A stretch of DNA of 64,000 nucleotides from Erodium maritimum (Eukaryota; Streptophyta; Magnoliopsida; Geraniales; Geraniaceae): the NCBI GenBank assembly GCA_963921825.1, contig OY997596.1, forward strand, positions 61,826,754-61,890,753, in the 5' to 3' direction. The stretch's first letter is position 1; every line of letters begins with the position of its first letter. The position numbers were made by a program, and so were the translations under genes. The notes beneath the pieces are model-generated. The model saw only the letters and a list, made by a program, of their open reading frames with translations, did not search any database and was not told the origin of the DNA. Positions 3,701-53,200 of the stretch are shown piece by piece.

Positions 3701-3726
3701 ATAGCGTACGCTCAACGCCCAAAATC

Positions 3727-3750
3727 AGAGAGAGAGAGAGAGAGAGAGAG
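3727..3750. repeat. (GA)n microsatellite in 5' leader
   Basis: About twelve GA units lie between the TATA box and the start codon of the GRP2-like gene. Confidence 0.9.
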
Positions 3751-3813
3751 CTAGGGTTTACTTCTCTTCTCATCCTTCTTCTTCACGAGCGAGCTAGGGT
3801 TTTAGGAGCCGCC

Positions 3814-30936: not shown

Positions 30937-33252
30937 ATGGCGTCTCTGTCTCTTCTCCTCTGTTTCGTCTCTTTCTTCTTCGTGTCTCGTTGCGTGTCTC
31001 TCTCCTCTGACCAGGCGGTGAAGACCTTCATCGTCAGGGTCGATTCGGAGTCGAAGCCCTCTGTTTTCCCGACCCATTACAATTGGTACGGATCCGAATT
31101 CGCCGAATCGGGCCAGATCTTACATGTATACGACACCGTTTTCCACGGCTTCTCCGCCTCTCTCACGGAGGAGCAAGCGGCTTCGATGACCCGGAACCCA
31201 TCTGTCCTCGCCGTCATGGAGGACCGTCGCCGGGAGCTTCACACCACTCGGTCCCCTCAATTTCTGGGCCTCCGGAACCAGCGTGGGCTCTGGTCGGAGT
31301 CCGATTACGGGTCCGATGTGATTGTTGGTGTCTTCGACACCGGAGTCTGGCCGGAGCGGCGGAGCTTCTCGGATCTGAATCTGGGTCCGATCCCGACCCG
31401 GTGGAAAGGGGTTTGCGAGGCCGGAGTTAAATTCACGGCGAGGAATTGTAACCGGAAGCTGATCGGAGCTCGGTACTTCGGCAAGGGTCAGGAGGCTGCC
31501 GGGAGGGGAGCTGGGCCGATTAATGGGATCAACGAGACGGTGGAGTTCCGGTCGCCGAGAGACGCCGACGGGCACGGGACGCACACCGCCTCCACCGCCG
31601 CTGGCCGGAACTCGTTCGAAGCCAGCATGGAGGGCTACGCCGCCGGAATCGCGAAAGGGGTGGCGCCGAAGGCGAGGCTCGCCGTCTACAAGGTCTGTTG
31701 GAAGAACTCCGGCTGCTTCGATTCCGACATCCTGGCGGCGTTCGACGCCGCCGTGGCCGACGGCGTTGATGTGATCTCGATCTCGATCGGCGGCGGGGAT
31801 GGGATCTCCTCGCCGTATTATCTCGACCCAATAGCTATTGGGTCCTATGGAGCGGCCTCCAGGGGCGTGTTCGTCTCCTCCTCGGCCGGGAACGACGGGC
31901 CTAACGGGATGTCGGTGACGAATCTCGCGCCGTGGGTCACCACCGTCGGGGCCGGCACGATTGACCGGAATTTCCCAGCCGACGTCGTTTTGGGCAACGG
32001 TAAGAGACTCTCTGGAGTGAGTCTCTACTCTGGAGCTCAGCTGAAGGGGAAAATGTACAGCCTCGTCTATCCCGGAAAATCCGGAGTCCTCTCTGCTTCC
32101 TTGTGTATGGAGAACTCTCTGGAACCTTCCTTGGTGAAGGGCAAAATCGTCATTTGCGACAGGGGAAGCAGCGCCAGGGTCGCCAAGGGCCTGGTGGTGA
32201 AGAAAGCCGGCGGCGTCGGGATGATTCTGGCGAACGGGATCTCCAACGGCGAGGGATTGGTCGGCGACGCCCATCTCATACCCGCCTGCGCCGTCGGGTC
32301 CAGCGAGGCCGACGCCGTCAAGGCCTACGCGGCGTCGACTGCGAACCCCACCGCGACGATCGATTTCAAGGGCACGGTGATCGGAATCAAGCCGGCTCCG
32401 GTGGTGGCGTCGTTCTCCGGCAGGGGACCCAACGGGATGAACCCGGAGATTCTGAAGCCTGATTTGATCGCTCCCGGCGTCAACATCCTCGCCGCCTGGA
32501 CCGACGCCGTCGGGCCAAGCGGGCTCGACTCCGACCGCCGGAAAACGGAGTTCAACATCCTGTCGGGGACTTCCATGGCGTGCCCTCACGTCAGCGGCGC
32601 GGCGGCGCTTCTCAAATCGGCGCACCCGGACTGGAGCCCGGCGGCGATCAGGTCCGCCATGATGACGACGGCGAACATCCTCGACAACCGGAACCTGCCG
32701 ATGACCGACGAGTCCACCGGCAAGCCGGCGAGCCCTTACGATTTCGGGTCGGGTCACGTCAATCTGGACCGGGCCATGGATCCGGGCCTGGTCTTCGACA
32801 TCACCAGCGACGACTACGTCAATTTCTTGTGCGGGATCGGGTACGAGCCGAAGGTGATCCAGGTCATCACCCGATCTCCGGTGAAATGTCCGGCGAAAAA
32901 ACCGTCTCCGGCGAACCTCAATTACCCATCCATCAGTGCTCTTTTCTCGAGCTCGTCGGCCAAACCCACGACCCGGATGTTCATCAGGACGGTAACGAAC
33001 GTGGGTGCCCCGAATTCGGTCTACGTGGCGACGATCCAAGCTCCGGCGAAGGGTGTGACGGTGACCGTCAAGCCGTCGAAGCTGGTGTTCAGTGAGGCTG
33101 TGAAGAAACAGAGCTTTGTGGTGACGGTGACGGCTAATAGCCGGAGCCTGGTGCTTGACGATTCGGGTGCTGTGTTCGGGTCGGTGTCGTGGTCCGATGG
33201 AAAGCACGTGGTTCGGAGCCCCGTTGTGGTGACTAAGTCGGATCCGTTGTAG
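30937..33252 (+). CDS. SBT1.6: Subtilisin-like serine protease (subtilase), SBT1.6/SLP2-like
   Basis: Intronless gene of 771 residues, the usual size for plant subtilases. Order: signal peptide (1-22), I9 prodomain (about 29-103, ending near ELHTTRSP), S8 catalytic domain, PA domain inserted at about 355-475, and C-terminal fibronectin-like domain. The catalytic triad is complete: Asp134 in VGVFDTGVWPE, His213 in DGHGTHTASTAAG, Ser546 in SGTSMACPHVSG. The oxyanion Asn319 is in SSSAGNDGP. The product is predicted to be secreted and self-processed, then active in the apoplast. The start at 30937 (CCCATGG) gives a proper signal peptide; the open frame upstream has no ATG. In Arabidopsis the SLP2 locus (At4g34980) lies beside the ADF9 and CYP21-1 genes, as here. 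The coding sequence is GC-rich compared with its surroundings, as is common for intronless plant genes. Long antisense frames over it are shadows. Confidence 0.95.
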   Translation: MASLSLLLCFVSFFFVSRCVSLSSDQAVKTFIVRVDSESKPSVFPTHYNWYGSEFAESGQILHVYDTVFHGFSASLTEEQAASMTRNPSVLAVMEDRRRELHTTRSPQFLGLRNQRGLWSESDYGSDVIVGVFDTGVWPERRSFSDLNLGPIPTRWKGVCEAGVKFTARNCNRKLIGARYFGKGQEAAGRGAGPINGINETVEFRSPRDADGHGTHTASTAAGRNSFEASMEGYAAGIAKGVAPKARLAVYKVCWKNSGCFDSDILAAFDAAVADGVDVISISIGGGDGISSPYYLDPIAIGSYGAASRGVFVSSSAGNDGPNGMSVTNLAPWVTTVGAGTIDRNFPADVVLGNGKRLSGVSLYSGAQLKGKMYSLVYPGKSGVLSASLCMENSLEPSLVKGKIVICDRGSSARVAKGLVVKKAGGVGMILANGISNGEGLVGDAHLIPACAVGSSEADAVKAYAASTANPTATIDFKGTVIGIKPAPVVASFSGRGPNGMNPEILKPDLIAPGVNILAAWTDAVGPSGLDSDRRKTEFNILSGTSMACPHVSGAAALLKSAHPDWSPAAIRSAMMTTANILDNRNLPMTDESTGKPASPYDFGSGHVNLDRAMDPGLVFDITSDDYVNFLCGIGYEPKVIQVITRSPVKCPAKKPSPANLNYPSISALFSSSSAKPTTRMFIRTVTNVGAPNSVYVATIQAPAKGVTVTVKPSKLVFSEAVKKQSFVVTVTANSRSLVLDDSGAVFGSVSWSDGKHVVRSPVVVTKSDPL

Positions 33253-35850: not shown

Positions 35851-36175
35851 ATAAACTGCAACCAAACAATCCAATCGCTCCACAAAATTAATATTTGTTT
35901 TGTAAAATAAACCGTCCACGTGGTGGATTTTTTGTAATCTAGCATATAGTTGATGAAAACAAACTATTTTTCGGTTCATTTATAAAAAGATCTGACTTTT
36001 GCATGCATCTGGCACTCAATCTTTTCTATTGTTAATCCCAACATATTTTTGTTGTATCGACTATTCAAAATAATAATTTAGCGAGCGAAACACGAAAACG
36101 ATGAGTTCAATTATGGTACAATGAATCTTAGTTAACAGTGAAAGTACTTACGAAATGTGTTGCTCTGATATCGCC

Positions 36176-36550
36176 TTAGGCTTTTGCACCTTCGGCAGCT
36201 TTACAAGGATTGCAGGGATCACAAGGATTGCAAGGATTACAGGGATCACATGGATTTGCTGCTCCCAAACCTCTTTCTTCGGCTTTGCAGGGATCACAAG
36301 GACCGCAAGGATTACAGGGATTTCCTTTTCCTGGACCGCATGGGTCACAAGGATTGCAGGGATTGCACGGGCCACAAGGATTGCACGGGCCACAAGGATT
36401 GCAGGGATTTGCAGCTCCCAAAGCTCTTTCTGCCTCTTTGGCATCAACTTCGGTCGTTGTGCCTCCACGAGCCATGACCAAAGAGTTTGATCCGACGATC
36501 AAGAATAGAGCCATGGAGAAGAGCACAACGTTGATATCCTTTGATGTCAT
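36176..36550 (-). CDS. CNPC copy A: small secreted Cys-x-Pro-Cys repeat protein
   Basis: 124 residues, family not recognised. Residues 1-27 are a hydrophobic signal peptide ([20 protein letters not shown], then [10 protein letters not shown]). A short acidic linker ([17 protein letters not shown]) precedes three blocks of tandem N/G/D-P-C triplets. Block 1 has 8, block 2 has 4 and block 3 has 6, giving 18 Cys. The blocks are separated by GPGKG and [10 protein letters not shown], and the chain ends KAAEGAKA. Cys at every third residue with Pro before each suggests an extended polyproline-like rod with Cys on one face; metal binding or cross-linking is possible but unproven. The ATG at 36550 was preferred over an in-frame ATG 51 nt upstream, because that one sits about 30 bp after the TATA box and would split the signal peptide. 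It has long antisense frames (LQGSQG repeats) that are by-products. Confidence 0.75.
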
Positions 36551-36624
36551 TTTGATAATTATTGGTGGATGACTTTGGAACTTCCGAATATGTTTGTACA
36601 TTTAAGATTGTGAGGCTGACGTTG

Positions 36625-36631
36625 TTTTATA
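36625..36631 (-). promoter_or_regulatory. TATA box of CNPC copy A
   Basis: TATAAAA on the minus strand, in a block conserved upstream of all four copies. Confidence 0.65.
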
Positions 36632-36769
36632 TGACAATGTTAGCTAATTTGCTATTGGTTTTGCGTGTATGTAGTTGCGCAAATCATTCTCGAATCAAGT
36701 TTCCAAACGGAAAGTTAATTGCTATATAGTTGGAAAAAAATGATTTTATTTATAATATAAGACATTTGT

Positions 36770-37260
36770 TTACAAAATCGTTCTCCGATCAAATACCCAA
36801 ACCAAATGTCTCATTCTCTTGGACTTGCTTTTAGATTCCAGGTTATGTATATATACACAATCAGGTGTTACCCATGATACGCATAGTGATATTATTTGAA
36901 GTTTCGAAAAATATATCGAAATGCATCCGGTATAGTGAACCTGGATCACGATGGGACAGACACAGAACAAGCCTTTTTGGCTAACGAGTGGACTACACCG
37001 TTTGCTGTCCCAGAAACATACTTGAGGGACAATAAAATGCAACGCCATTTCTCAATGATACGTTCCACCGATGAGTAAAAAAGGGTAATCCCTAAAATTA
37101 GTCCCACCACATACTGAGCGTCACCCCAAATTAGGGTCTGAACCCACTGGAGAGCTCGAATAACAGTTGTGGCTTCTACAAATTCTAAGCCAAAAAACCC
37201 CCACAAGAGTGCTATTATTGACATCCACCACACAACCCCGATCATCCATACACAGTTGGC
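36770..37260 (-). pseudogene. LINE RNase H remnant between CNPC copies A and B
   Basis: The minus-strand frame 37245-36946 reads ...LEFVEATTVIRALQWVQTLI...SVERIIEKWRCILLSLKYVS...TANGVVHSLAKKA. This is the C-terminal RNase H pattern of plant LINE ORF2 (E..A and ..N..AH.LA). It lacks the upstream catalytic part. The reverse-transcriptase-side remnant at 40.66-41.16 kb is in the same orientation and could be the other half of the same LINE. Confidence 0.65.
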
Positions 37261-37429
37261 CCCACCCTATCTGACTCGTATATGAAAATACAGCCCTATC
37301 GACGCTGAGTGAGATCCATGTCAGAGGTAGAGGCGACCGACTTATTTCCCTCCAGTGTAAAACCCGCTCCGTTTCGTTAAGGTATTAATTTGCAAACGAA
37401 AACATTAGGGTAGGTTTTAAAACAAGTGC

Positions 37430-40400
37430 AAAAAAAAAAAATGATCTGGGCAGGCCAGGCTCGGCCAGCAGGCCCTTCCCCTCACTTGGGCTTGAGCCCG
37501 TTTGTTGTTTGAGGCCCAAGAGGGCCGGCCCAAGCCGCACCCCTTATAAGCTGAAACTAGGGTTTCAGCACTTCAACCACAGCCTCCATCTTCTCTCTCT
37601 CTCTACCCGACTCCCTCTCTCTCCTCCGTTCATCTTCTTCGCCGAACCATCCCCGGCCGCCACAGTTCCGGCCGCCACCTCCCTCACCGGCACCGTCTCA
37701 TCCCTTCCTCCTCCGTCCCGAACCTCCCTCACCGAGCCCGAGCTCGTTCTTCTCCGACTCAAAACCCCGACCTTCCTCGTCACCTCCTCAGCAACGGCCG
37801 ACCACCACCCGTCCTCCTCACCTCCTCCGTCCAGCCACGACCGCGCCGCCGTCCCGACCACGCCACCGTCCCGACCACCCTCCTCCCTCACCAGATCCGT
37901 CCAACCACGCCACCGTCAAGTCGCCGCCCCGTCTCCGTCTCGGAATCGTCGCCCTCCGTGAGACCCGCAACCGGCGTTTCAGCCGAGCTCGCCGGCGTCC
38001 CCACGCCCGAGCTCCTCCCGCCTTCGATCCGAGCCAACCGCCGTGCACCGCCGTGTGCCGCCCGTACTTCCCTACGGTGAGCCACCACCGTGAGTTTTCC
38101 GGCCGGCTTTATCGTTGTCGAGGGCCGTCGGATTTTCCGACCGAGCTCTCTCTCCCTTTCGTTGTATTTTCGGTTTATGTTTAAATCTGTTAGTGTAAAA
38201 ACGAGTGTAATTTTGGATCTGTTGAAATCGATTTGTATTGGGTTAAACCTGCTAATGGAATTGTTTAATTTCTAGAACTGATTTTGAATTGAAAAGGGGA
38301 AATAATTGAACAAAATCAGTGTTAATCAAAGAGGATTGTTTTTTTGAAACGAAATTTATTTGTAAAAGGAAAAAGGGGAAAATCAGTTGTGAATTCTTAA
38401 GAAAATTGATAAAATAAAATCTGATTAAATTAAACGGGTTTTAAAACGAAAGTCTTTTATTAAGGTTAGACTCGAGTTAAGTTTAATCGAAAAAGGGAAA
38501 CGAAATCAAATCGACTTTATAAGGGTTTTGGACCGAAGTATCGAGTTTGGAAACGAACGGAAGGAAACCGTTTTGTCTTACAATCAAAAACGGAATTAAT
38601 TAAAGCAAGGGAGTTCAACGACGGTTTTAAGTTAAAAAGGGATTTAAACTGGGTTTTAGATCAAACCCGGGTTCGGTGCGCGGGTGCTCGAACCCGATCC
38701 GTTGTAACCCGACTTTTATCCCGCTCGAGTGTAAACGACAACTGTCAAGTTTAAAATGGACAAATCGTAGCCGTTAACTTAACGGCGGAACCGTTATTAA
38801 CTTGGGCGTTGAGTTATTTATTTTTCGACCGGTTCGTACTAGTTTAAAGTGAGTTAAATCTGTGTTCTTTTAGATCGTGCTGCGGACCGAGGCAAAGGGA
38901 GGCTCGGCGAGTGACTGCGATTCATCTCGGGTTTAGTGGAGCGCTTCTGGAGTTGCTTACGAGGTAGGGAAAAGTAGCCGGATCTCGGCCCTGACTAGGG
39001 AAAGTTAACAGTAGAATTGCATGTGACACCGGGGTGTCGTGGGTTGAGTAGGTTTATTTTAAATACTAGAAAAGCATGATGCGGGGTTTGTAGCGTTTAT
39101 CAGAAAAGCATGTTACAGGAACTTAGGAATTATTGAGAAAAGCATGTGACACTTAGCAGTGTCGTAGGAGCAGAGAACTTAGCGTTAGTTGTTTTACTGG
39201 AGGCATATGACCATGCCCGGAGGTTGATTGTGAAACTGTTGATATTAGGACTGTTGGAGGCTTGGGTTAAGCCGGAGGTTGATTGCTTTTTGGCGTCTTT
39301 GGTGGCCATGAGAGCCCGTGTTGTTAATCGTGTTTGGGTGGCCATGAGAGCCTGTACTTTATTGTTGGTGTTTTAGCTGGCTTACGAGTTAGAGTCTCGG
39401 TAAGTTGCAAGCGTGTTTTATTGTTGAGTTTTGGGTGGCCGTGAGTGCCCGTGGGGTTGTTGAAACCGTGTCTTTACCTTTGGTGTTTTGGGTGGCCTTG
39501 AGAGCCCGTGTACTAAGGTTGGTGTCTTTGGCTGGCCTGACCGAGTTAGAGTCTCGGGGGGGTTGCAAGCTCTCTTTAGCTGGCTTACGAGTTAGAGTCT
39601 CGGTAAGTTGCAAGCGTGTTTTATGGTTGGTGTCTTGGGAGGCCGTGAGTGCCCGTGGGGCTGTTGAGTTCGAGTTTTACTGTTAGTGTCTTGGTGGCCA
39701 TGAGTGCCTATGAGTGTTGAACCTGTGTTGTTACTGGTTGTGAACTTGCTTGTGATTGTGATTGTGTTTGTGATTGTGTTTGTGGTTACCGGAGGTTGGG
39801 GGCCCGCTTCCTGAAACGGGGGTCCACGAGCACACGCGTCTGCATGTTCAGACGGGGTAGGGGGCCCGCCCGCCAATAAAGGGGTCCTGGCCGCGCGTGT
39901 GTGGTTTGGGTTCGTGAGCGTACCTTGGCTGGCTTATGGGTTAGAGTCCCAGTAAGTTGCAGCATTTTCCGGCTGGCTTATGGGTTAGAGTCCCAGTAAG
40001 TTGCAGTATTTTCCGGCTGGCTTATGGGTTAGAGTCCCGGTAAGTTGCAGCATTCTTGGGTTGGCCTGACCGGGTTAGAGTCCCGGGAGGGCGTTCTTGG
40101 CAGCTGGTTTGCGATCCTTTGCGATCTTTTTTGGGGTTACGTGGTTCCTTTGAGTCCTTGGAAGAGGTCGTGATCGTTTTGTCGTGTCTACTTACGTGTT
40201 TGAGTGTTGAGTTGTTCGAGGAAGGTCACCGTGGGTGTTTGTCAGTCAGAGTACTTGGGTTGGGGACAGTGATCCCCGGGGTCGAGTTTGTTGTTGGTGT
40301 TACCGGCATTGTCTGCTAATTATGCCGTAGTCAGTCTGTTATTCGTGGTGGTGAGCGAACGCTCACCCCTAGCTGCTTTTCCTACAGGTACTGTTCGTGG

Positions 40401-40646
40401 GACGGACTAGATGAGCTCTCGAAGCTTGTGGAGCTAGGAGCGGAGTCCGGGTTTTGTCTTTTGAGTTTAGTGACGGATACCTTGTAATTTTGTCCACTTG
40501 TTGGGACGTGGTTTAAGCTGAAATTATTATTTGTTGAACTAAACTGGTATTTTAAAGTGTTTAATGAAAACAGGTTTCAAGTGTTTTTATGTTTTTAAAA
40601 CGTTCGCGTCCCTAGTTCGGTTTACTGAAATTGGGGCGTGACATCC
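37430..40646. mobile_element. LTR-like retroelement sequence, non-coding
   Basis: About 3.2 kb without any gag/pol signature. It has a TATA-like CTTATAAG and CT-rich leader near 37545. A Pro/Ser/Arg-rich GC stretch lies at 37.6-38.1 kb, and it contains minisatellites. Its right end reads GTTCGCGTCCCTAG...GGGGCGTGACA. A second sequence with a matching end (GTTCGCGTCTCGAG...GGGGTGTGACA) ends at 45862, and both share TTTTCCTAC and CACCCCT words upstream. Ending in CA suits an LTR. The left border and target duplication were not found. Confidence 0.5.
39374..40060. repeat. Minisatellites inside the LTR-like element
   Basis: A 44-bp unit (GGCTGGCTTATGGGTTAGAG...) occurs three times at 39927, 39971 and 40015. 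Related units GCTGGCTTACGAGTTAGAGT recur ~205 bp apart near 39375 and 39580. GGTGGCCATGAGAGCCCGTG-type words recur from 39300 to 39700. Confidence 0.85.
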
Positions 40647-40659
40647 AGGGTCGCGTGTA

Positions 40660-41165
40660 GTACTGGTCCGCGAAGTCCCCGTATAGGCCTCTCTCCAACT
40701 ATGTAAGTGACTCTTAATCGTAACATCCAAGACCTCAACTGATGGGGGGCCTGGTCCCACACAACCCCACTTTTGGCTTCAATATTTCTCATATTATCAT
40801 GCTATCCGCCCATTTACCAACATGTTTGGTGGAGTCATAATAAGGGTCAACCAAAATTCCAACATATGTTGCGGGAGAAAGAAGATCTAGCTAGGTTTTG
40901 GCCCAAACCTCCTGTGCGAAACGGCAATGCAAGTGGAATGTAGTTTCTCGATCCCTTTGACACGGCAATGCAAGTGGAATGTAGTTTCTCGATCCCTTTG
41001 ACAGACAGGACACTCCTCCGGAATAAGAACATATTTGGTCCGGAGATTGGCGGCCACTAGTAATATCTGAGAGAGACCGCCATAAGAACACTCTTATCCG
41101 AAGTTTGTGCAAAAAATGGAAAGATTACAGTTCGGAAGTGCAAACAAAGGTCAAGCCCAATTAGG
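40660..41165 (-). pseudogene. LINE reverse-transcriptase C-terminal (zf-RVT) remnant
   Basis: Minus-strand frames give KLRIRVFLWRSLSDI followed, after a frame break, by CPVCQRDRETTFHLHCRFAQ. This is the zf-RVT pattern (C..C....E...HL...C) found just after the reverse transcriptase of plant LINEs. A 41-bp tandem duplication (40921-40961, 40962-41002) repeats the REYTFHL-coding part and disrupts it. Confidence 0.7.
40921..41002. repeat. Perfect 41-bp tandem duplication
   Basis: ACGGCAATGCAAGTGGAATG through CCCTTTGAC occurs twice in a row without differences, inside the LINE remnant. It is probably recent. Confidence 0.95.
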
Positions 41166-41400
41166 ATCGTCAAAACAAAGGTCAAAACAGGTTAGAACCC
41201 ATGGTTAAATAACAAAATCATTCATTTTTTAATTGAGTTCAATATAAGATTATTAATTTCACTTACATCTACATATAGACTGAAATCTGAAAGGAAGTCC
41301 AAAATTATTTTGTGAATTTGACTTCAATTAAATATTTGAGTTCTAGCATATTTGTCATATAGACATGCTCTTCTTAACTTGGTAGAGTGTTATAATTAAC

Positions 41401-41413
41401 TACTCGGAAAACT
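41401..41413. repeat. Left target-site duplication of the B-arm retroposon
   Basis: TACTCGGAAAACT, repeated at 43034-43046. The C arm has it once (inverse near 47803-47815). Confidence 0.85.
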
Positions 41414-43033
41414 GGACTGATTGAGCAAGAGAGCGGCGGCTAGGGTTTGCGCCGTCGCTGATAGTGGGAGTTTGTGTTGATTGCAGTGCATCATGCCTGT
41501 GACCATGGGGCTGGATCATATGATCCAGGTTGTGCTTTTCCTAACGTTGAATACATCGTGGAATTGTGGGTTTGCAGAGGAGCAGAAGCAAGTTCTTTGG
41601 TCTTTGGTTTTGGTCGGCGACCGAAATAAGCATGGCTGGGGGCGTTGTGGTGGAACCTCTGATGATGAGGGGTGGTGCGGCACCAGCCTTGCGGTGTCGC
41701 CGGGGAAGACAGGCCGAGTACTGGCCTTCGGTGGCCGCAGCGGACCAGAGGCGGACCATCGATCATCCCGTTCATCGCCGTGGACGGCGGCAGGGGAGTT
41801 GTTCACCACCGCTGCGTATGTGAGGGATGGAGAGAGCGGCAAGAAGAGGGCGACGTCTGGCCGTGTGGTTCCCCGCATCCCATCGACTCGATGTTCTCCA
41901 CGGCCCGCATCGCCGAGTGCGGACGTGGAGGTTCTCGCCAGATCTCTCGGAGGAGTCGTGGGTCTCGTCCCAGTGGTCCTGACGACACAGAGGATCAGGG
42001 AGGCAGGTCGGGCGTCGTGGGGGACGGGTCATTCCTAGACGGCGTCGCGGGGCGGAGTACGACGCATTCAGGAATCGGAGTCCGTGGTGCTTGAGTCTGG
42101 CGGACGACGAGAGAAGGAGGAACGGGAGGCTAGGGTTCCAAGCATGATGGTTGGGCCGAGACAGAGTCCGGCGGGCGGCAGAAGAAGATGGCGGCATTAG
42201 GGAAGACGTCGACGGTGGCTAGGGTTCCGGGAGAAAGGTTGTCGGCGCTGCAAGCAAAGGAATCTAGGATTCAGGGGTCTTGGGCCGAGATGGGCTTTGG
42301 TTATGAGTCGGTCCGGGCTGACCGGGCTGGGTCGGGCCTAGTCGGGGCTGAGGAGGAAGCTGGTTGGGATTGCCTGGGTCGGGTCGGTTTGGACCGGGTT
42401 GGGTCTGGAGGTCGAGGTGGTTTGGGTCAGGGTTGGGGCTGCTCTTCGTGGATCGGCCTATCTGAGGAGTTTACACAGGCCGGGGCAGAGTCCGGCCCTG
42501 TTTTGGCACGAATTTCGAGGAGTTATCGGAATTATGGTGGTGCGTCAAACATAGCAGCGGCGAGGGGCTTCAGGCACCCTCGCCTCCAGGAATGAGTATG
42601 GAAGGGGCCAGGGAAGGTTTGATCGGCTGTACCTTTTCCCTGGTGTATAGGTGGCAAGGGTACCACCAACAGTTGATAAGTTACTTCTCTACCACTTCGG
42701 AGTCAGCAATCCAGCGTTCAGAAGCCCTACCATTATCAGTCAAGGGAGGACGACGCACGCTGACTTACCGGGGGAGTAATTGGTCCACCACTACTTGCTT
42801 ATCCTCTGATCTGCTCGATCAGTATCTTATGGTTGTAGTATACTGTATCGGTGTCCTTGGACGCTACCGCAGTCCCACCCCTCCGACCGCCCCTATGTCA
42901 AAGAGCAAAATTTATTTATCTGCATTTGTCTTTCATGTTTTGTTAGTTTGGTTCCTATGTACGGTGTCTCCGGTTCCCGAAGGCACCAGAATGCTTTTAT
43001 ATTAATAATATTATCGTTTCTCTAAAAAAAAAT
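41414..43033 (+). mobile_element. 1.6-kb poly(A)-tailed retroposon inserted in the B arm
   Basis: Flanked by the 13-bp duplication TACTCGGAAAACT. Ends in TATTATCGTTTCTCTAAAAAAAAAT. The paralogous C arm is continuous across this point (…AACTACTCGGAAAACTATAT) and so shows the empty site. The GC-rich body has open frames on both strands (41481-42038, 42188-42595) without recognisable reverse transcriptase or endonuclease motifs. It is probably a non-autonomous or 5'-truncated LINE. The left part GGCGGCTAGGGTTTGCGCCG looks like a transcript leader, so a retrocopied gene is also possible. Confidence 0.82.
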
Positions 43034-43163
43034 TACTCGGAAAACTATATTATATTATTTTCAGTTATATAGCAATTAGTTTTCGGTTGGGAAATTTGAT
43101 TGGAAATTATTTTTCGGCAGCGACATAAACGCAAAACCAAGAGAAAATTAGCAAACAATGTCA

Positions 43164-43170
43164 TATAAAA
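43164..43170 (+). promoter_or_regulatory. TATA box of CNPC copy B
   Basis: TATAAAA, conserved with the other three copies, 81 bp before the ATG at 43245. Confidence 0.65.
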
Positions 43171-43244
43171 TAACGTGAGCTTCACAATCTTAAATGTACA
43201 AACATATTCGGAAGTTCCAAGGTTATCCACCAATAATTATCAAA

Positions 43245-43619
43245 ATGGCATCGAAAGTTATAAACGTCATGCTCTTCTCCATAGTTCTGTTCTTGATCAT
43301 CGGATCAAACACTTTAGTCATGGCTCGTGGAGGCACAACAACCGAAAGTGATGCCAAAGAGGCAGAAAGAGGTTTGGGAGCGGTAAATCCCTGCAATCCT
43401 TGTGGCCCGTGCAATCCTTGTGGTCCGTGAAATCCTTGTGACCCGTGCGGTCCAAGAAAAGGAAATCCCTGTAATCCTTGCGGTCCCTGTGATCCCTGCA
43501 AGGCCGAAGAAAGAGGTTTGGGAACAGCAAATCCCTGTGATCCCTGCAATCCTTGCAATCCCTGCAATCCTTGCGATCCCTGTAATCCCTGCAAAGCTGC
43601 CACAGAAGAAAAAGCCTGA
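43245..43619 (+). pseudogene. CNPC copy B: same family, single Cys-to-stop change
   Basis: Same layout as copies A, C and D: signal peptide beginning MASKVINVMLFSIVLFLIIG, acidic linker, then triplet blocks. The frame meets TGA at 43428-43430 after four triplets, where the others have TGC (Cys). Beyond it the frame is open to a TGA at 43617-43619, so the 125-codon length equals copy A and there is no frameshift. A truncated 61-residue product could still be made. The conserved 3'UTR intron is present (43664-43890). B shares SNTLV in the signal peptide with copy C and is that copy's inverted partner. Selenocysteine is not expected in land plants. Confidence 0.75.
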
Positions 43620-44194
43620 TGTGATATCGAAACAATAACAGGAGGTGTGGGACTAACACATTCGTAAGTACCTTGACTTTAATCAAGATTCTCTGTTCCA
43701 TAATTTAACCCATCTTTTGCTCGTTCCACTTGCTGAATTAATATTTTGTATATTTGATATGACCAAAATATGTTAATTTTCTCTCTTTAACTATATGTCT
43801 AGAGTTTAGACAACAAAAATCATCACATAAATTGCTTATTTAATAAAACAAATATTAATTTTGTGGAACAATTGGATTGTTTGGTTGCAGTTCATATGCG
43901 TACTTAAACCGGATCATAGGAGCCGGATGAGGAGCAGGAGCATCTAGATTGTAAATAATACTGGTTGTCACGATGATGATGAGTCACGATGGGCATCCTT
44001 AATTTTTATCAACTGTTTTGATTTAATTTATCCATTTCTTTTTGTTTTGTTGGTTTTATATTTCCTCTCCTTGAGAAGCCAATTGGGTAATTGTATTTTT
44101 TTTTATCAATAAACACTATAATTAGAGTGCGAATTGAATTTTTCAATGAGATTCAGCATGAAATAGTCTAGTTAATAAATATATATTTTTATCA

Positions 44195-44950
44195 GCGAAA
44201 GTTTTATTGAATGATCCTAATCTTCGAAATGAAGACTGAGGACGAGGAGATATATCCCCTCCAAAATGCAGGATAAAGACCGCTCGAGGTTGTAGGAGAC
44301 ACCTTGTATTTTAACAAAAATCTCTTACAAGGACTCAACAATATTGTTGAAAACTATCTTGTTCCTTACCAACCAAATAAACTAGATGATAAAGAAAACT
44401 ATGCTTCCTTGTCGTTTCCTAGAACTCTTGATGGCAACTGATTTCTAAGAACAATCAATTCCTTGACATCCCCTAGACAAGACCACTTCAATCCCTTCCA
44501 AATTCACAATGACAAACCAAATATACCAAGATCTAGAAGGGGCATACCGTTGGAGAGAGACGGGCCCTCAGGATCCGGCCCTTGATCTAGACAGGCTTCT
44601 CACCACTATAGAATTTTCCAATTCAGCCTCGAAGTCTAAAACTTCGAAGTCTCAAAAATATAATATTTAATTAGAGACTTCAGCTTTGACACTTCAATGA
44701 ACACCCTGCCCTTACATTGAAGTTGTAGATGGTTGACCTCCTCTAAATCAGTAGAACAGAAAGGACAAAAAACATCACCTAAAGGAAGATTTAGCCCTCT
44801 ATTAAGGGGGAAGAACATGGTCGGGATGAATCGATGACAAGTTAACCTAGTAAAAACTGAGGTTTTTGGAGGTAAGAGAGGAGACCACAAGAATTGAGCC
44901 GAATCGGGTTTAATAGTCACCTCAACTTCCAAGAGTTCATGCATCTATTT
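44195..44950 (-). pseudogene. LINE remnant with zf-RVT motif at the inner edge of the B arm
   Basis: The minus-strand frame 44944-44636 contains LPPKTSVFTRLTCHRFIPT and CPFCSTDLEEVNHLQLQC, the zf-RVT domain following LINE reverse transcriptase. The likely 3' tail is TTTTTATCAGCGAAAGTTTT at 44199. The tail part (to about 44299) is also in the C arm, inverted, but the zf-RVT part is not. Confidence 0.65.
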
Positions 44951-44989
44951 TACTAAACCTCTTAACTCAAACAGATGTGCAAATATGTC

Positions 44990-45862
44990 TTCACTCATCA
45001 AAGAGCTATGTGAGCTAATGCGTGTTATTCTCTTAACGTGTGTTTCAAGAGGAGATGTGTCCGGTAGGATACCTACACTGAGAGAGTATGTCGGTGTAGA
45101 GTATAGAGGACGAGGACTGTTTAACTATTACCCCGATGCGATATGTCCGGGAAGGCATACGACCGAGGTATGTGCCGGTCCGGTATGCGTGAGGCCCTGA
45201 TTATACGTGACAGGAAGACGTCCGATTGAGGGATTTCCGGTCTGGGATGTTACCCCGATTCTACGTGACGGGAAGATATCGGGACCGATGTTGTGTGTTC
45301 CGGTACGATATAAATGGGACGGGATGTGATAGCCGGCGATGTTAAGGGCGGTGGTACTAATTTATGTGTTGCTCTGATGTGTGTGTTGTGTGTGCTGATT
45401 GGCTTTGTGCATTATTATATTTGTGTTATTATGGTCTTGCGAGAGTGATTAGTGATTGGTACTTGTCATGTGGGCGTTGTTGATAGCTATGCTTTGCTAG
45501 TATGTCATAATTGGACGGTTACTCATGGTGGTGAACTGAGGTTCATAACCTTAACTACTTTTCCTACTGAGCGAAAACTCACCCCTTACCTTGTTGTTTT
45601 TCAGGTGTTGAGCGGGATCAGTACTAGCAGGATTCTCCGAGCTTGGGAGTTGGCGAGGGTTTTGGCTAGTGGCTAGAGACGTACAATTTTTATTGCTGTT
45701 TTGAACTCTTTTATTACGTGTTTTTACCGAGCTTTTGACTCGTGTGGATTTTCGGAACTTTAAATTGTTATTTGAGACCCTCTTCCTTTATTAAACAACT
45801 TTATTAATTATCGTTTTAAGTTCGCGTCTCGAGTCCGGTCAAAACCGGATTTGGGGTGTGAC
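44990..45862. mobile_element. Second LTR-like fragment, ending GGGGTGTGACA
   Basis: Its end resembles the element at 37.4-40.6 kb (CACCCCTTACC, TTTTCAGGTG, GTTCGCGTCTCGAGTCCGG, GGTGTGACA). The earlier part has short degenerate repeats of CCGG/ACGTGACGGGAAGA type. No coding signature. It sits in the loop between the inverted arms. Confidence 0.45.
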
Positions 45863-46550
45863 AAGAAAGTGGAGAGTTTAATAGAGAATGGGGAACTCCA
45901 ACAAGACATGATCACCAAGGCAAATCAAGAAGGCATTCAAGAACAATTCAAGACTTCAACAAATCTGTTTTTGCCTCTACTTCAAGGAATTAATGAAGCC
46001 AACTTATTCATCATTTCCAAAGGAGATTCAGCCCCTCAAACCACTCAAGAACATTAAATAGCCAAGGTATGCATTTAAATTCAGATTATTAATGAGTTAC
46101 TTTTGCTGTTTTGCAGATTCCAAGCATTTAGTTTATCAAGAGTCATTTAGCATTAATTAGAGTCAAATGTAATCAATTTTAGACCCTTGAAGGTCACTTG
46201 CTGCTGGACTTTTTTAATAAAGTCCCTTCTCAGCATGTATTATGCAAGTTTTATGAAATAAAAATATTCGAGTTTTCTTCTGGGAAGAATCTATCACATT
46301 CAACCTTCTTGTGCACGAAGCCTTGAAGTTCTTTGTTCGACTTATCACAAACTTTCCATAATCCGTGTGGCGCCATTCAATCCACCATCTATCCTTCTAG
46401 TTACTTTGATTCTTCAAAAAGTGTTGTACGACCAGTTGAAGCAATCTCCATCATCGACTCTATCTTCGTCCATTAGAACCTTAGAAAGTGTTGTACGACC
46501 AGTTAAGGTTCTCCATTTTACCACCACGTTCCTGTATAGGGACCTTTGTA
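45863..46550. other. Loop sequence of the inverted duplication, retroelement-like
   Basis: A short plus-strand frame (45851-46057) encodes a Gln/Glu-rich peptide with no assignable family. At 46417-46506 AAAGTGTTGTACGACCAGTT occurs twice about 68 bp apart. It is probably LTR or LINE debris. Confidence 0.4.
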
Positions 46551-47235
46551 ATCCTACAACCTTGAGTGGTCTTTATCCTGCATTTTGGAAGGAATATTTC
46601 TCCTCATCCTAAGTCTTCATTTCGAAGATTAGGATCATTCAACTAAACTTTTTCTGATAAAAAAAAGAAGTATTTATTAATTAGAGACTATTTCATAGTG
46701 AATCTCATTGAAAAATTCAATTTGCACTCTAATTGCAGTGTTTATTGATAAAAAAAATACAATTACCCAATTGGCTTCTCAAGGAGAGGAAATATAAAAC
46801 CAACAAAACAAAAAAAAAATCGATAAATTAAATCAAAACAGTTGATAAAAATTAAGGATGCCCATCGTGACTCATCATCGTCGTGACAACCAGTATTATT
46901 TACATTCTAGGTGCTCCTTCTCCTCACCCGGCTCCTCTTATCCGGCTTATGTACGCATATGAACTGCAACCAAACAATCCAATTGTTCCACAAAATTAAT
47001 ATTTGTTTTATTAAATAAGCAATTTATGTGATGATTTTTGTTGTCTAAACTCTAGACATATGGTTAAAGAGAGAAAATTAACATATTTGTCATATCGAAT
47101 ATACAAAATATTAATTTAGCAAGTGGAACGAGAAAAAGACGGGTTAAATTATGGAATAGCGAATCTTGATGAAAGTCAAGGTACTTACGAATGTGTTAGT
47201 CCCACACCTCCCGTTGTTGTTGTTCCGATATCACA

Positions 47236-47601
47236 TCAGGCTTTTTCTTCTGTGGCAGCTTTGCAGGGATTACAGGGATCACATGGATTGCAGGGATTGC
47301 AGGGATTGCAGGGATCACAGGGATTTGCTGCGCCTAAACCTCTTTCCTCGGCTTTGCAGGGATCACAAGGACCGCAAGGATTACAGGGATTTCCTTTTCC
47401 TGGACCGCATGGGTCACAAGGATTGCAGGGATTGCACGGGCCACAAGGATTGCAGGGATTTGCAGCTCCCAAAGCTCTTTCTGCCTCTTTGGCATCAACT
47501 TCGGTCGTTGTGCCTGCACGAGCCATGACCAAAGTGTTTGATCCGGCGATCAAGAACATAACCATGGAGAAGAGCACGACGTTGATAACTTTCGATGTCA
47601 T
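47236..47601 (-). CDS. CNPC copy C: small secreted Cys-x-Pro-Cys repeat protein
   Basis: 121 residues, intact. The signal peptide ([30 protein letters not shown]) and the linker [17 protein letters not shown] precede triplet blocks of 6, 4 and 7 N/G/D-P-C units (17 Cys). The blocks are divided by GPGKG and [10 protein letters not shown] and the protein ends [12 protein letters not shown] box at 47682-47676. The start is at 47601 for the same reasons as in copy A. A conserved 225-nt intron (47188-46964, GTAAGT...TTGCAG) lies in the 3'UTR, 47 nt after the stop. It is the closest relative and inverted partner of broken copy B, and possibly the functional member of that pair. Function unknown; a secreted Cys-rich structural, metal-binding or defence role is speculation. 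Confidence 0.75.
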
Positions 47602-47675
47602 TTTGATAATTATTGGTGGATAACCTTGGAACTTCCGAATATGTTTGTACATTTAAGATTGTGAAGCTCACGTTG

Positions 47676-47682
47676 TTTTATA
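47676..47682 (-). promoter_or_regulatory. TATA box of CNPC copy C
   Basis: TATAAAA on the minus strand within the conserved upstream block (…AACAATGTCATATAAAA… in the other copies). Confidence 0.65.
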
Positions 47683-47879
47683 TGACAATGTTTGCTAATT
47701 TTTTCTTGGTTTTGCGTTTATGTCGCTGCCGAAATCATTCTCTAATCGAATTCCCCAACTGAAGGCTAATTGCTATATAGCTGAAAATAATATAATATAG
47801 TTTTCCGAGTAGTTAATTATAACACTACCAAGTTAAAAAGAATATGTCTATATGACAAACATGGTAGAACTCAAATATT

Positions 47880-48734
47880 AGACACTGAAAGACGTGCATA
47901 GAGAAACCATAATTCTCTCTGCGTGTAGCCCTTATTGCAGTTATCTTTGAAGCTCTTTTTTTCCACCAATAAAGCCCTCTGCTTCCACCATTGAAGCCCT
48001 TGTTTCCAAGCTCTCTGTCCAATCTTCGGGTTTAAACCAACTTTCGGGTTTCCACTCTACCGTCGCCGTTCACTTGATCGGAGTCGGTTTTATTTGTTTA
48101 TTGTCTTTTTTGCAGACGGACTACCTTCGCAGGTCGCCGTCTATCGTTCAATCCGTGCCACGGCCTCTCCCTCGCCTCGCGCTACCGATCCTGCGTCGCC
48201 GGACCGGTCCCGCCCTCTAGCCAATAGCCACCGTGCCCCCCCTGCCGTTTTCCGGTATACGGGCTCCACGCGTCGTCTTCCATCTGCAGCGGCCTCCCGC
48301 CCAGGGTCACCCCTCGCCGGCATGGGTCCGCTCCCTCGATGGATCTGGTATCCGGGAGGAGGGACGGTAGGCTGGGGCCTATTTCACCGGCACCGAATTC
48401 AGGAATCTCAACCCCGAACAAGCTTTTGCAGCAGGGAGGTCTCGGAGAATCTGCACTAAAGGCTAATTCTCTAGTAGGTTTCACTGTTTTAGATCGAATA
48501 ATCTTTTGGCTCAATTAGTTTAGAACTTTGGTTTATTATTATTTTGAAACGTTGGATCGAGAAACTCTTGAGTTTGGATCTGCGAGACAAAGCAGACTAT
48601 ATGTATGGAACCATGTGCGTCCGACGGGCTACGACCGGTTGGGACAAAAAACTGGTATCCGAGATTGTTATGTCCCTTCTTGTAAATATGATATGAAATC
48701 GTAATACAACTACTTCTTTTCCGTTTCAAAAAAA
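47880..48734 (+). mobile_element. 0.85-kb poly(A)-tailed retroposon inserted in the C arm
   Basis: Flanked by the 14-bp duplication AGAACTCAAATATT (47866-47879 and 48735-48748) and ending TTCCGTTTCAAAAAAAA. The B arm reads straight through this point (inverse of AGAACTCAAATATTTAATTG near 41325-41345), giving the empty site. There are no recognisable retroelement domains. TTGTCTTTTTTGCAGACGGA near 48100 resembles a splice acceptor. Confidence 0.82.
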
Positions 48735-48869
48735 AGAACTCAAATATTTAATTGAAGTCAAATTCACAAAATAATTTTGGACTTCCTTTTAGATTTCAGT
48801 CTATATGTAGAGGTAAGTAAAATTAATAATCTTATATTAAACCCAATTAAAAAATGAATGACTTTTTTA

Positions 48870-49480
48870 TTTTCAATATTTGATTCACCGACAGTGTGAG
48901 GCTGACTCGAATCCGTCTGGAAATGTGGCCTTATTTTGTCGATATCCCAAAAGAACTTGGTTTGGGCTCATATTGCTGGCATAGTACACAAGATAGGCAT
49001 CCCCTGTTTAGTAGAGGACGATCTGAGTCCATCTGGGCAATCAAGAATTCAGAGATCACTTAATTTAAATTTGCTTTGTCGATAAAAAAAAATATAAATT
49101 ATATACTCCATCGAGTTCTGACATATATAGTATGTCAAAATCGGTATAATAAGATTTTATTTTTGATAACCCAAACTAATCGGATTAGGTTCATAACGTA
49201 GGAAGAGTACACAAATAAGCATATATAGGTTTGCCCGTAGTCTGAGGCCGATTCGCGCCCGGTCAAACAGCCAAAAACCTAATTTCTACGTTACACTTAT
49301 TTATAGCATAGTATATAGTATGTCGAAATCGATACAAATAATAATTACAACGGCATGTCATTGGTTTAATAGCCATTGGATCAATCAAATCCAAAAATCC
49401 ACAATTAATTAATAGTTAATTAATTAGCTTTCCGTTTGGAAATTTGATAGGAGAATGATTTCAGCAGCGACATAAACGCA
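48870..49480. other. Spacer between CNPC copies C and D
   Basis: AT-rich, no gene. TATATAGTATGTCAAAATCGG near 49124 and CATAGTATATAGTATGTCGAAATCG near 49309 resemble the TATAGTATGCCGAAAACGG core of the satellite that starts 1.4 kb further on. They may be stray, diverged fragments of it. Confidence 0.4.
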
Positions 49481-49510
49481 AAACCAAGACAAAATTAGCA
49501 AACAATGTCA

Positions 49511-49517
49511 TATAAAA
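49511..49517 (+). promoter_or_regulatory. TATA box of CNPC copy D
   Basis: TATAAAA, 81 bp before the ATG at 49592 and 30 bp before an upstream in-frame ATG at 49541, which therefore lies near the expected transcription start. Confidence 0.65.
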
Positions 49518-49591
49518 CAACGTGAGCTTCACACTCTTAAATGTACAAACATATTCGGAAGTTCCAAGGTCATCCACCAATAATTATCAAA

Positions 49592-49957
49592 ATGACATCA
49601 AAGGTTCTCAACGTCGTGCTCTTCTCCATGGTTCTGTTCTTGATCGCCGGATCAAACTCTTTGGTCATGGCTCGTGCAGGCACAACAACCGAAGTTGAAG
49701 CCAAAGAGGCAGAAAGAGCTTTGGGAGCTGCAAATCCCTGTAATCCTTGTGGCCCGTGCAATCCTTGTGACCCGTGCAATCCAGGAAAAGGAAATCCTTG
49801 TAATCCTTGCGGTCCTTGTGATCCCTGCAAGGCCGAAGAAAGAGGTTTGGGAGCAGCAAATCCCTGTGATCCATGCAATCCCTGTGATCCCTGTAATCCA
49901 TGCAATCCCTGTGATCCCTGTAATCCCTGCAAAGCTGCCACAGAAGAAAAAGCCTGA
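49592..49957 (+). CDS. CNPC copy D: small secreted Cys-x-Pro-Cys repeat protein
   Basis: 121 residues, intact. The signal peptide ([30 protein letters not shown]) is followed by an acidic linker. The triplet blocks have 5, 4 and 8 N/G/D-P-C units (17 Cys), separated by NPGKG and [10 protein letters not shown]. The chain ends KAATEEKA. The 3'UTR intron is at 50002-50263, 44 nt after the stop. SNSLV in the signal peptide, the promoter word CTTTCCGTTTGGAAA and the 3' intron word ACAAAAATATGTTGGGATTA are shared with copy A and not with B or C, so A and D are inverted partners. Family not recognised. Confidence 0.75.
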
Positions 49958-50001: not shown

Positions 50002-50263
50002 GTAAGCACCTTGACTTTAATCAAGATTCGCTGTTCCATAATTTAACCCGTTTTTTTCTCGTTTTACTCGCTAAATCCCAACAAAAATATGTTGGGATTA
50101 ACAATTGAAAGGATTGAGTGTCAGATCCATGCAAACGTTAGAATTTTTATAAATGAACCGAAAGATAACCTGTTTTAGATTACCAAAAAAAATCATCACA
50201 TACACTGTTTATTTTATAAAACAAATGTTAATTTTGTGAAACAATTGGATTGTTTGGTTGCAG
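50002..50263 (+). other. Conserved 3'UTR intron of CNPC copy D
   Basis: Donor GTAAGC and acceptor TTTGGTTGCAG. Counterparts: A 36151-35856, B 43664-43890, C 47188-46964. The acceptor block ATTGGATTGTTTGGTTGCAG is nearly invariant in all four. Confidence 0.6.
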
Positions 50264-53200
50264 TTCTAAGCATATCAAAACGGAATCATAAGAGCCGGAC
50301 TAGGAGCAGGAGCACCTGCTATGTAAATAATATCGGTTGTCAAGATGACGACAAGTCACGATAGATATCCTTAATTTTTATTAAATGTTTCGATTTAATT
50401 TTTATCTTTATTTTTATTTTTGTTGGTTTTATATTTCCTCTGTTCGAGAAGCCAATCGGGTTCTTCTTCAATGTATATGAAGAAATTGCTCATATCAATA
50501 TACTCTATAGTTGGAGTGTGAATCAATTTTTTTTTTTGTTATTCAGCATGAACTAATCTTATTAATAAACATTATACTTATCACCTTTTATAAATGTACA
50601 AGTTCCAAATTCTTTTTCGCAATAGGTCGAGTGTCTTGTTGGATTATTATATGTAAATTGTTACGAATTTCAGAACAAAACAAATGTGAATGAAATAGGC
50701 AATTGAAAACTGGAACGACCAACTGGTATGACCTAACGAACTCGGATTAGTCGATAAATACTGGGTATGCGTAGATATGCGTTATCTTGTTCACCCTACA
50801 TGTTATAACCCGATAACAATTTTTTCCACTTTTTTGCCGATTCTGACATATGCCGAAAACGGTGAAACCCCAAAAATCTAAATTTCAATGTCCTCACGAA
50901 CTCGGATTAGCCCAAATATAGTGGGTATGCGTGGATATGCATATTCTCATTCTCCATGCATGTTTGAACCCGATAATAATTTTTTTTCCACTTTTTTTCC
51001 GGGTCTGACATACTATATAGTATGCCGAAAACGGTGAAAAATCGAAAAATACTCATTTTCATTGACCTAACGAACTCGGATTGGCCTAAAAATAGTGGGT
51101 ATGCGTAGATATTCATATTCTCATTGTCCATGCATGTTTTAACCCGATAATAATTTTTTTTCACTTTTTTGCCGGTTCTGACATACTATAGTGTGCCGAA
51201 AACGGTGAAAAACCGAAATATCTATTTTTCATTGACCTAACGAACTCGGATTGGCCTAAAAGTAGTGGGTATGCGTAGATATGCATATTCTCATTCTTCA
51301 TGCATGTTTGAACCCGATAATAATTTCTTTTCACTTTTTTGACGGTTCTGACATACTATATAGTATTCCGAAAACGGTGAAAAACCGAAAAATCTCATTT
51401 TCATTGACCTAACGAACTCGGATTGGCCTAAAAATAGTGGGTATGCATAGATATGCATATTCTCATTCTCCATGTTTGTTTTAACCCGATAATAAATTTT
51501 TTTTCACTTTTTTGCCGGTTCTGACATACTATCTAGTATGCCGAAAACGGTGAAAAACCGAAAAATATATTTTTCATTGACATAACGAACTCGGATTGGC
51601 CTAAAAATAGTGGGTATGCGTAGATATGAATATTAACATTCTCCATTCATGTTTTAACCCGATAATAATTTTTTTTCACTTTTTTGCCGGTTCTGACATA
51701 CTATAGTATGCCAAAAACGGTGAAAAACCGAAAAATCTATTTTTCATTGACGTAATTAACTCGGATTGGCCTAAAAATAGTGGGTATGCGTAGATATGCA
51801 TATTCTCATTCTCCATGTTTGTTTTAACCCGATAATAAAAAAAATTCACTTTTTTGCCGGTTCTGACATACTATATAGTATGCCGAAAACGGTGAAAAAC
51901 CGAAAAATATATTTTTCATTGACATAACGAACTCGGATTGGCCTAAAAATAGTGGGTATGCGTAGATACGCATATTATCATTCTCCATGCATGTTTTAAC
52001 CCGATAATAATTTTTTTTCACTTTTTTTCCGGATCTAACATACTATAGTATACCAAAAACGGTAAAAAAAGAAGAATCTCATTTTCATTGACCTAACGAA
52101 CTCGGATTGGCCTAAAAATAGTGGGTATGCGTAGATATGCATATTCTCATTCTCCATGCATGTGTTAACCCGATAATTTTTTTTTTCACTTTTTTGCCGG
52201 TTCTGACATACTATAGTATGCCGAAAACGGTGAAAAAACGAAAAATCTATTTTTCATTGACCTAACTAACTCGGATTGGCCTAAAAGTAATGGGTATGCG
52301 TAGATATGCATATTATGATTATCCATGCATGTTTGAACCTGATAATAAATTTTTTTCACTTTTTTGCCGGTTCTGACATAGTATAGTATGCCGAAAACGG
52401 TAAAAAAACCGGAAAATCTATTTTTCATTGACCTAACGAACTCAGATTGACCTAAAAATAGTGGGTATGCATAGATATGCATATTCTCATTCTCCATGCA
52501 TGTTTGAACCCGATAATAATTTTTTTTCCACTTTTTTGCCGGGTCTGACATACTATATAGTATGCCGAAAACGGTGAAAAACCGAAAAATACTCATTTTC
52601 ATTGACCTAACGAACTCGGATTGGCCTAAAAATTGTGGGTATGCGTAGATATTCATATTCTCATTGTCCATCCATGTTTTAACCCGATAATAATTTTTTT
52701 TTCACTTTTTTTCCGGTTCTGACATACTATTATAGTGTGAGGAAAACGGTGAAAAACCGAAATATCTATTTTTCATTGACCTAACGAACTCGGATTGGCC
52801 TAAAAGTAGTGGGTATGCGTAGATATGCATATTAACATTCTCCATTCATGTTTTAACCCGATAATAAAAAAATTTCACTTTTTTGCCGGTTCTGACATAC
52901 TATAGTATGCCGAAAACGGTGAAAAACCGAAAAATCTATTTTTCATTGACCTAATTAACTCGGATTGGCCTAAAAATAGTGGGTATGCGTAGATATGCAT
53001 ATTCTCATTCTCCATGCTTGTTTTAACCCGGTAATAAAAAAATTTCACTTTTTTGCCGGTTCTGACATACTATATAGTATGCCGAAAACGGTGAAAAACC
53101 GAAAAATATATTTTTCATTGACATAACGAACTCGGATTGGCCTAAAAATAGTGGGTATGCGTAGATACGCATACTATCATTCTCCATGCATGTTTTAACC

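Follow-up and report, generated by a model that had tools for sequence, protein, structure and literature searches.

A four-copy cluster of genes for secreted-looking Cys-x-Pro repeat proteins in Erodium maritimum

Described Cys-x-Pro proteins and the four-copy cluster

Repeated Cys-x-Pro steps are known from animal sperm-tail proteins. The mammalian outer dense fibre protein ODF1 (HSPB10) is described as one of the main proteins of the accessory fibres in the sperm tail (PMC9499666). Its C-terminal domain contains several C-X-P repeats, and a variant lacking 27 bp of this region was reported as not disease-linked (PMC8913478). These 27 bp presumably correspond to three 9-nt units. The Mst(3)CGP proteins of Drosophila come from a clustered gene family and have repeated Cys-Gly-Pro; axoneme assembly was reported to be disturbed when the Mst84D genes were deleted (PMC10645079). 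Here, we describe four homologous plant genes with a Cys-x-Pro repeat, called CNPC genes below. They are located at positions 36176–49957 of a 64,000-nt stretch of Erodium maritimum DNA (GenBank assembly GCA_963921825.1, contig OY997596.1, positions 61,826,754 to 61,890,753 of the forward strand), which is referred to as the window. The encoded proteins look secreted, are under selection in their repeats, and have no above-threshold match in Pfam, NCBIfam or the PDB sequences. A preliminary description of this DNA had likewise taken them for an apparently unnamed family of small secreted proteins.

The genes stand on alternating strands (−, +, −, +), and three of the four (copies 1, 3, and 4) are intact (Table 1). 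The preliminary description had claimed four whole copies in 14 kb, each with 17–18 N/G/D-Pro-Cys triplets in three blocks. The four homologous copies and the triplet counts were found again (18, 18, 17, and 17 in copies 1–4, with the blocks counted by eye), but copy 2 is not whole. Its blocks comprise 7+4+7 triplets, one step being an in-frame stop that sits in a Cys column of the repeat alignment. A tblastn comparison of copy 4 with the whole window, with the filters off, gave the four copies, and the remainder was weak (best E 0.014). When the window was shuffled 100 times with a first-order Markov model, no six-frame run of [NGD]PC was longer than 1, which excludes a chance origin of such runs. 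The lengths of blocks 1 and 3 vary oppositely between the copies, so that the triplet sum is steady at 17–18; this constancy is not significant, since 2 of 24 permuted pairings equal it.

The proteins consist of a signal-like start, linker 1, block 1, a spacer, block 2, linker 2, block 3, and a tail, in this order. Residues 1–27 are signal-peptide-like as judged by eye: a short n-region (MTSK) and a hydrophobic core are followed by VMA, and the candidate cut is after A27 or S21. The signal peptide claimed earlier for each copy corresponds to a hydrophobic N-terminus in each, by eye. Linker 1 ends with EAERALGAA (EAERGLGAV in copy 2). Block 1 has 5–8 [NGD]PC triplets, block 2 has 4, and block 3 has 6–8; a short GPGKG-like spacer separates block 1 from block 2. 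The C-terminal tail is KAATEEKA (KAAEGAKA in copy 1). Within the blocks of the intact copies, Cys-x-Pro is found at every step. The residue x is mostly Asn or Asp, and it is Gly in 2–3 of the 17–18 steps by eye. When cut after A27, the mature part of the three intact copies has 94–97 residues (9.5–9.6 kDa), with 18–19% Cys, 19–20% Pro, and neither aromatic residues nor His. Its isoelectric point is 4.5–4.7, with 11–13 Asp plus Glu against 8 Lys plus Arg. The linker had been called acidic; acidity is present, but the balance of charges in the mature part shows that it is only mild.

The Pfam search with the three intact copies, and with the N-terminal 46 residues of copy 4 on their own, gave no match above threshold. 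The same was true of NCBIfam for the three intact copies and of the PDB sequences, which were compared with copy 4 and with part of copy 1. Sub-threshold matches to MSSP, WxL, amelogenin, PhiKZ gp35, Pox_A9, two NCBIfam models, SPAG8, and AKAP14 were rejected as low-complexity or chance. By title and start of abstract, no paper on such a protein was found in the open-licence literature, where motif strings are seldom printed, so that this is weak evidence of absence. Some of the papers that came up dealt mostly with thioredoxins. CNPC did not occur in the available part of the bufferin/MNIO paper (PMC12452194). In these databases and open-licence papers, therefore, no characterised family was matched, in agreement with the earlier view. 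Rfam and ARAGORN gave 0 matches on the window.

The likeness to ODF1 lies in the Cys-x-Pro step, which occurs as 17–18 xPC triplets in the three intact copies. However, ODF1 has an alpha-crystallin domain (PMC8913478), and no such Pfam match was obtained for 3/3 intact copies. In addition, it is an animal sperm protein, whereas the present genes are from a plant. Mst(3)CGP (Mst84D, Mst87F) shares the Cys-x-Pro step and the clustering of the genes (PMC10645079), but the plant copies have mostly Asn or Asp in place of Gly, and they have a signal-peptide-like start and linkers. ODF1 is not known to have a signal peptide. The Pfam family MSSP (PF03940) scored 12.9 bits with copy 4 (E 0.085) and 9.6 bits with copy 3 (E 0.91) against the curated cut-off of 21.2, and copy 1 was not listed. 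Membership of both families was rejected, because there is no alpha-crystallin match, the MSSP scores are below the cut-off, and the step is not Cys-Gly-Pro. ODF1 and Mst(3)CGP are the nearest by design among the systems found, and the CNPC genes belong to the family of neither.

The plant families compared differ in layout. Plant metallothioneins are likewise small and Cys-rich; they are cytosolic, have C-C/C-x-C spacing, and are not known to carry a signal peptide. In contrast, the CNPC copies have no Pfam metallothionein match, their Cys are two residues apart in the blocks, and the N-terminus is hydrophobic. Disulphide-knot peptides (defensins, lipid transfer proteins, and thionins) have a fixed, even number of Cys and fixed spacing. 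They were rejected as relatives on account of the 17 or 18 Cys, the variable blocks, and the lack of a Pfam match. Glycine-rich (class II) and hydroxyproline-rich proteins of the plant cell wall have a signal peptide, a short charged linker, and low-complexity repeats, which are not known to contain such Cys; the copies have no Pfam match to such a family.

AlphaFold was run with the three intact copies as an alignment. The mean predicted local distance difference test (pLDDT) value was 46, and the predicted template modelling (pTM) score was 0.21. A helix was placed over residues 2–46, confident only to about residue 25, and residues 26–121 were all below a pLDDT of 50. The polyproline-II rod proposed earlier is therefore unsupported, as these values neither show nor exclude it. 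Asn, Asp, and Gly before Pro favour turns rather than polyproline II.

Gene anatomy, selection, and copy history

The transcript anatomy was read from sequence patterns. In all four copies, TATAAA starts at −81 relative to the inner ATG, which opens the signal-peptide-like sequence (MTSK/MASK...). The open frame itself begins with an outer, in-frame ATG at −51 (MYKHIRKFQ...). Since TATAAA starts just 30 nt ahead of this ATG, the mRNA probably begins at it, near it, or after it. Because the outer ATG is so near the TATA box, the inner ATG is considered the likelier start of translation. Signals of a predicted intron in the 3′ untranslated region (UTR), GTAAG...TTGGTTGCAG, were found in 4/4 copies: the donor GTAAG is 24–47 nt past the stop, and the distance to the acceptor TTGGTTGCAG gives a length of 225–296 nt. 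AATAAA is present past the acceptor, within 620 nt after the stop, in all four copies; copy 4 reads AATATA at the position aligned with the AATAAA of the others, and its own AATAAA comes later.

The last ~80 nt before the inner ATG showed pairwise differences of 1–6%, while those of the 140 nt upstream were 12–32%. The values were 4–22% for the intron and 6–26% for the second exon. A conserved promoter, TATA box, and 3′UTR intron had been reported. The TATA box and the signals of the predicted intron are indeed common to all four copies. Conservation of the promoter is limited to the final ~80 nt, since the preceding 140 nt are kept no better than the intron or the second exon.

The ratio of nonsynonymous to synonymous substitution rates (dN/dS) was calculated by the pairwise Nei–Gojobori method (NG86) for the six pairs of the four copies. 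In the repeats, it was 0.04–0.14 in all six pairs; it was 0.40–0.88 in the N-terminal 47 codons and 0.11–0.32 overall. Third codon positions account for 24 of the 32 variable columns in the repeats (binomial p 1.7e-6 against one third, treating the columns as independent, which those of slipping repeats strictly are not). Among the 20 Cys and 21 Pro columns, 7 and 11, respectively, are variable, and always at position 3. The low dN/dS and this restriction of Cys and Pro columns to third-position variation mean that the repeat protein is under purifying selection. It should be mentioned that the coding parts differ in length by whole 9-nt units, gained or lost, so that a frame kept through indels is by itself no evidence of selection.

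Copy 2 has the most private changes of any copy, in 11 of the 24 variable N-terminal columns. When its stop codon was skipped, its repeats gave dN/dS of 0.04–0.11 against the other copies. Because these values are still low, the break looks recent. Copy 2 is best described as either a young pseudogene or a shortened form of 61 aa.

Outside the coding part, copies 2 and 3 are the closest pair, with 17/139 differences upstream, 8/225 in the intron, and 11/189 in the second exon. They are carried in an inverted duplication with arms at 41207–44297 and 46552–48872, which reach past the genes (repeat pairs I5, I12, I15, and I23); the arm stretches at ~41.3–43.0 kb and ~47.8–48.7 kb are not among the repeat pairs listed. 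The synonymous difference between copies 2 and 3 (15/81 sites) exceeds that of their intron (Fisher p 5.6e-5), although this synonymous count may be too high where repeat units were aligned arbitrarily. The coding part of copy 3 is nearest to that of copy 4 (20/354 differences, against 27/354 for copy 1 and 28/363 for copy 2). Exchange of coding sequence among the copies by gene conversion would explain this pattern.

Possible roles of the repeat protein

The reading put forward here, plausible rather than probable, is that of a secreted, disordered, thiol-rich protein which cross-links through disulphides. Secretion, oxidation, cross-linking, and location in the wall are all parts that we infer. 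The small mature chains would stay disordered and act via their regularly spaced Cys. The CxPC steps would be oxidised after export, partly within a chain between adjacent CxPC pairs and partly between chains, and the linkers might serve as spacers between the Cys blocks. The product, insoluble and disulphide-linked, would fill or cross-link the cell wall or some other layer outside the cell. The purifying selection on the repeats, with Cys and Pro columns variable at third positions alone, is counted in favour of this reading. A disordered chain fits the lack of aromatic residues and His in the mature part and the low AlphaFold confidence. Copies 3 and 4 have 17 Cys, all in the repeats, so that at least one Cys per chain would be unpaired within the chain. 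In addition, the odd or variable Cys counts and the lengths of block 1 (8/7/6/5) and block 3 (6/7/7/8) argue against a fixed disulphide knot; variable lengths of this kind are as expected of a repetitive cross-linker. On the best reading, such a cross-linker might work like the Cys-x-Pro repeats of ODF1 and Mst(3)CGP. If secreted and cross-linked through Cys, the proteins would represent plant wall or surface material based on disulphides, not on tyrosine or sugar bonds. The wider proposal, a lineage-restricted plant family that forms a secreted, disulphide-polymerised extracellular material and independently invented the Cys-x-Pro design of animal sperm-tail proteins, seems rather doubtful.

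Several points weigh against the disulphide cross-linker. The analogues ODF1 and Mst(3)CGP, which presumably act through disulphides, work inside sperm cells, not outside plant cells. The Cys-x-Pro spacing would also suit metal binding. The pairwise rates are not independent, because the copies show signs of sequence exchange, and the alignment inside the slipping 9-nt units is partly arbitrary. Furthermore, a Gly-x-y frame on the opposite strand has a pooled dN/dS of 0.18 against 0.08 for the sense frame, a separation based on few sites, and the wobble positions of both frames coincide in the same columns.

The strongest of the rival readings is metal binding, although it is considered unlikely. 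The CxPC steps of a secreted protein would then hold thiolate clusters of Zn, Cu(I), or Cd, as an extracellular counterpart of metallothioneins; the significance would be the existence of metallothionein-like proteins outside the cell. The Cys content of 18–19% in the mature part is consistent with this, and CxxC spacing is a common metal-chelating step. However, the C-C and C-x-C steps typical of plant metallothioneins are absent, and the secretory pathway and apoplast oxidise thiols.

Bacterial sequences also bear on the metal-binding rival. Matches in prokaryote genomes comprised 19 loci, 11 of which (L009–L016, L020, L023, and L025, on contigs of metagenome-assembled genomes) contain four or more non-overlapping CxPC within one open frame; in the other 8, no such frame was found. 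Like the plant copies, the bacterial CNPC proteins have an export-like hydrophobic N-terminus by eye and NPC/GPC/DPC runs. The Cys-x-Pro design thus has precedents outside plants, in these frames and in ODF1 (PMC8913478) and Mst(3)CGP (PMC10645079). Large exported-looking proteins (L009–L013, L015, and L023) have a C-terminal cytochrome P460-like domain in 7/7 scanned, with the Pfam match above the cut-off in four and just below it in three (26.1–26.8 against 27 bits). The number of Cys-x-Pro steps is up to 45 (L012). Small exported-looking CNPC companions of 72–118 aa are found ~2 kb away at four of the five loci L009–L013, and three of these four have an acidic linker between the blocks, much like the plant design. 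In bacteria resembling Rhodospirillales, these seven loci possibly serve redox or metal functions. A SAR324 protein (L016:2743–3483) combines NPC runs with a SoxA/TsdA-like cytochrome c domain. The Planctomycete proteins of L014, L020, and L025 are exported-looking and rich in CDPC/CEPC/CGPC, with basic, phenylalanine-containing spacers; the Pfam scan of L014 and L020 gave no match above the cut-off.

The joining of bacterial CNPC runs to haem-protein domains, P460 in 7/7 scanned and cytochrome c in L016, keeps a metal or redox role alive for the plant proteins. The same domains distinguish the bacterial proteins from the plant copies. No match of the first 47 residues of copy 4 to the 11 bacterial frames was better than E 0.35, and linker 2 had none at E 10. 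Because the match is confined to low-complexity repeats, the bacterial proteins are likely convergent with the plant copies, and their metal binding is itself putative. That Cys-x-Pro occurs in animals, in bacteria, and in this plant suggests that slippage of 9-nt repeats can arrive at such a simple design repeatedly.

It is improbable that the protein is a precursor, cleaved at the linkers into two Cys-rich peptides that have similar N-termini and would act in signalling or defence. The linker 1 motif recurs before block 3, and Arg precedes (A/G)LGAANPC in both linkers, both Arg being invariant in the three intact copies. The underlying DNA is duplicated in copy 4 (Table 1): one arm covers linker 1 and the start of block 1, and the other covers linker 2 and the start of block 3. 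These features would suit such a precursor, but the Cys number and block length differ between the copies, which is uncommon among signalling or defence peptides whose disulphide pattern is set.

A non-coding or dying minisatellite, with 9-nt slippage, a frame open by chance, and copies becoming pseudogenes, is very improbable. Whole 9-nt length changes would keep the frame without selection, and copy 2 is interrupted; against this stand the low dN/dS and third-position bias of the repeats in all six pairs, together with the 80 nt before the start, which are kept far better than the intron and the second exon.

The least credible reading, a real gene on the opposite strand with a collagen-like Gly-x-y repeat, is highly improbable. 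This frame is open in all four copies with a low pooled dN/dS, and the reading has to be taken seriously because 7 of 8 viral-contig matches were reverse strands of Gly-x-y frames. Against it, the sense dN/dS is lower, no ATG stands ahead of the repeat in 4/4 copies (by eye, ATG starts only), and the sense strand is the one favoured by the TATA box, the signal-like start, and the splice signals. The viral loci concerned (L001, L002, and L004–L008) are long collagen-like open frames of 402–2112 aa. The viral loci were rejected as relatives of the CNPC genes; only L003 has a CxPC frame. This frame (L003:4548–6095) encodes 516 Cys-rich residues with 4 CxPC and a CDPCNP run, and had no Pfam match at E 1.

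Feature coordinates and surroundings

Table 1. Positions in the window of the coding sequences (CDS), TATA boxes, predicted introns, and internal duplication of the four CNPC copies
Feature	Position	Strand	Remarks
Copy 1 CDS from inner ATG	36176..36550	−	124 aa, 18 Cys, blocks 8+4+6 xPC
Copy 2 CDS-like frame	43245..43619	+	TGA in frame at 43428-43430, codon 62 of 124
Copy 3 CDS from inner ATG	47236..47601	−	121 aa, 17 Cys, blocks 6+4+7 xPC
Copy 4 CDS from inner ATG	49592..49957	+	121 aa, 17 Cys, blocks 5+4+8 xPC
Copy 1 TATAAA	36626..36631	−	sequence pattern
Copy 2 TATAAA	43164..43169	+	sequence pattern
Copy 3 TATAAA	47677..47682	−	sequence pattern
Copy 4 TATAAA	49511..49516	+	sequence pattern
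Copy 1 predicted 3′UTR intron	35856..36151	−	296 nt, sequence pattern only
Copy 2 predicted 3′UTR intron	43664..43890	+	227 nt, sequence pattern only
Copy 3 predicted 3′UTR intron	46964..47188	−	225 nt, sequence pattern only
Copy 4 predicted 3′UTR intron	50002..50263	+	262 nt, sequence pattern only
Copy 4 internal duplication	49711..49782 vs 49837-49908	+	79% identity over 72 nt

Three neighbouring stretches with Pfam matches were judged plant-like. They are a subtilase with PA and fn3_6 domains (30937–33249), a glycine-rich cold-shock/zinc-knuckle frame (3523–4452), and a partial GH10 enzyme (7868–8740). A degenerate tandem repeat of ~24–25 nt units is located at 28744–29142, where three minus-strand frames are open. 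A satellite array at 50729–63032 opens a few hundred bases past copy 4; it contains 71.7 copies of ~174-nt units and also shows a 345-nt period.

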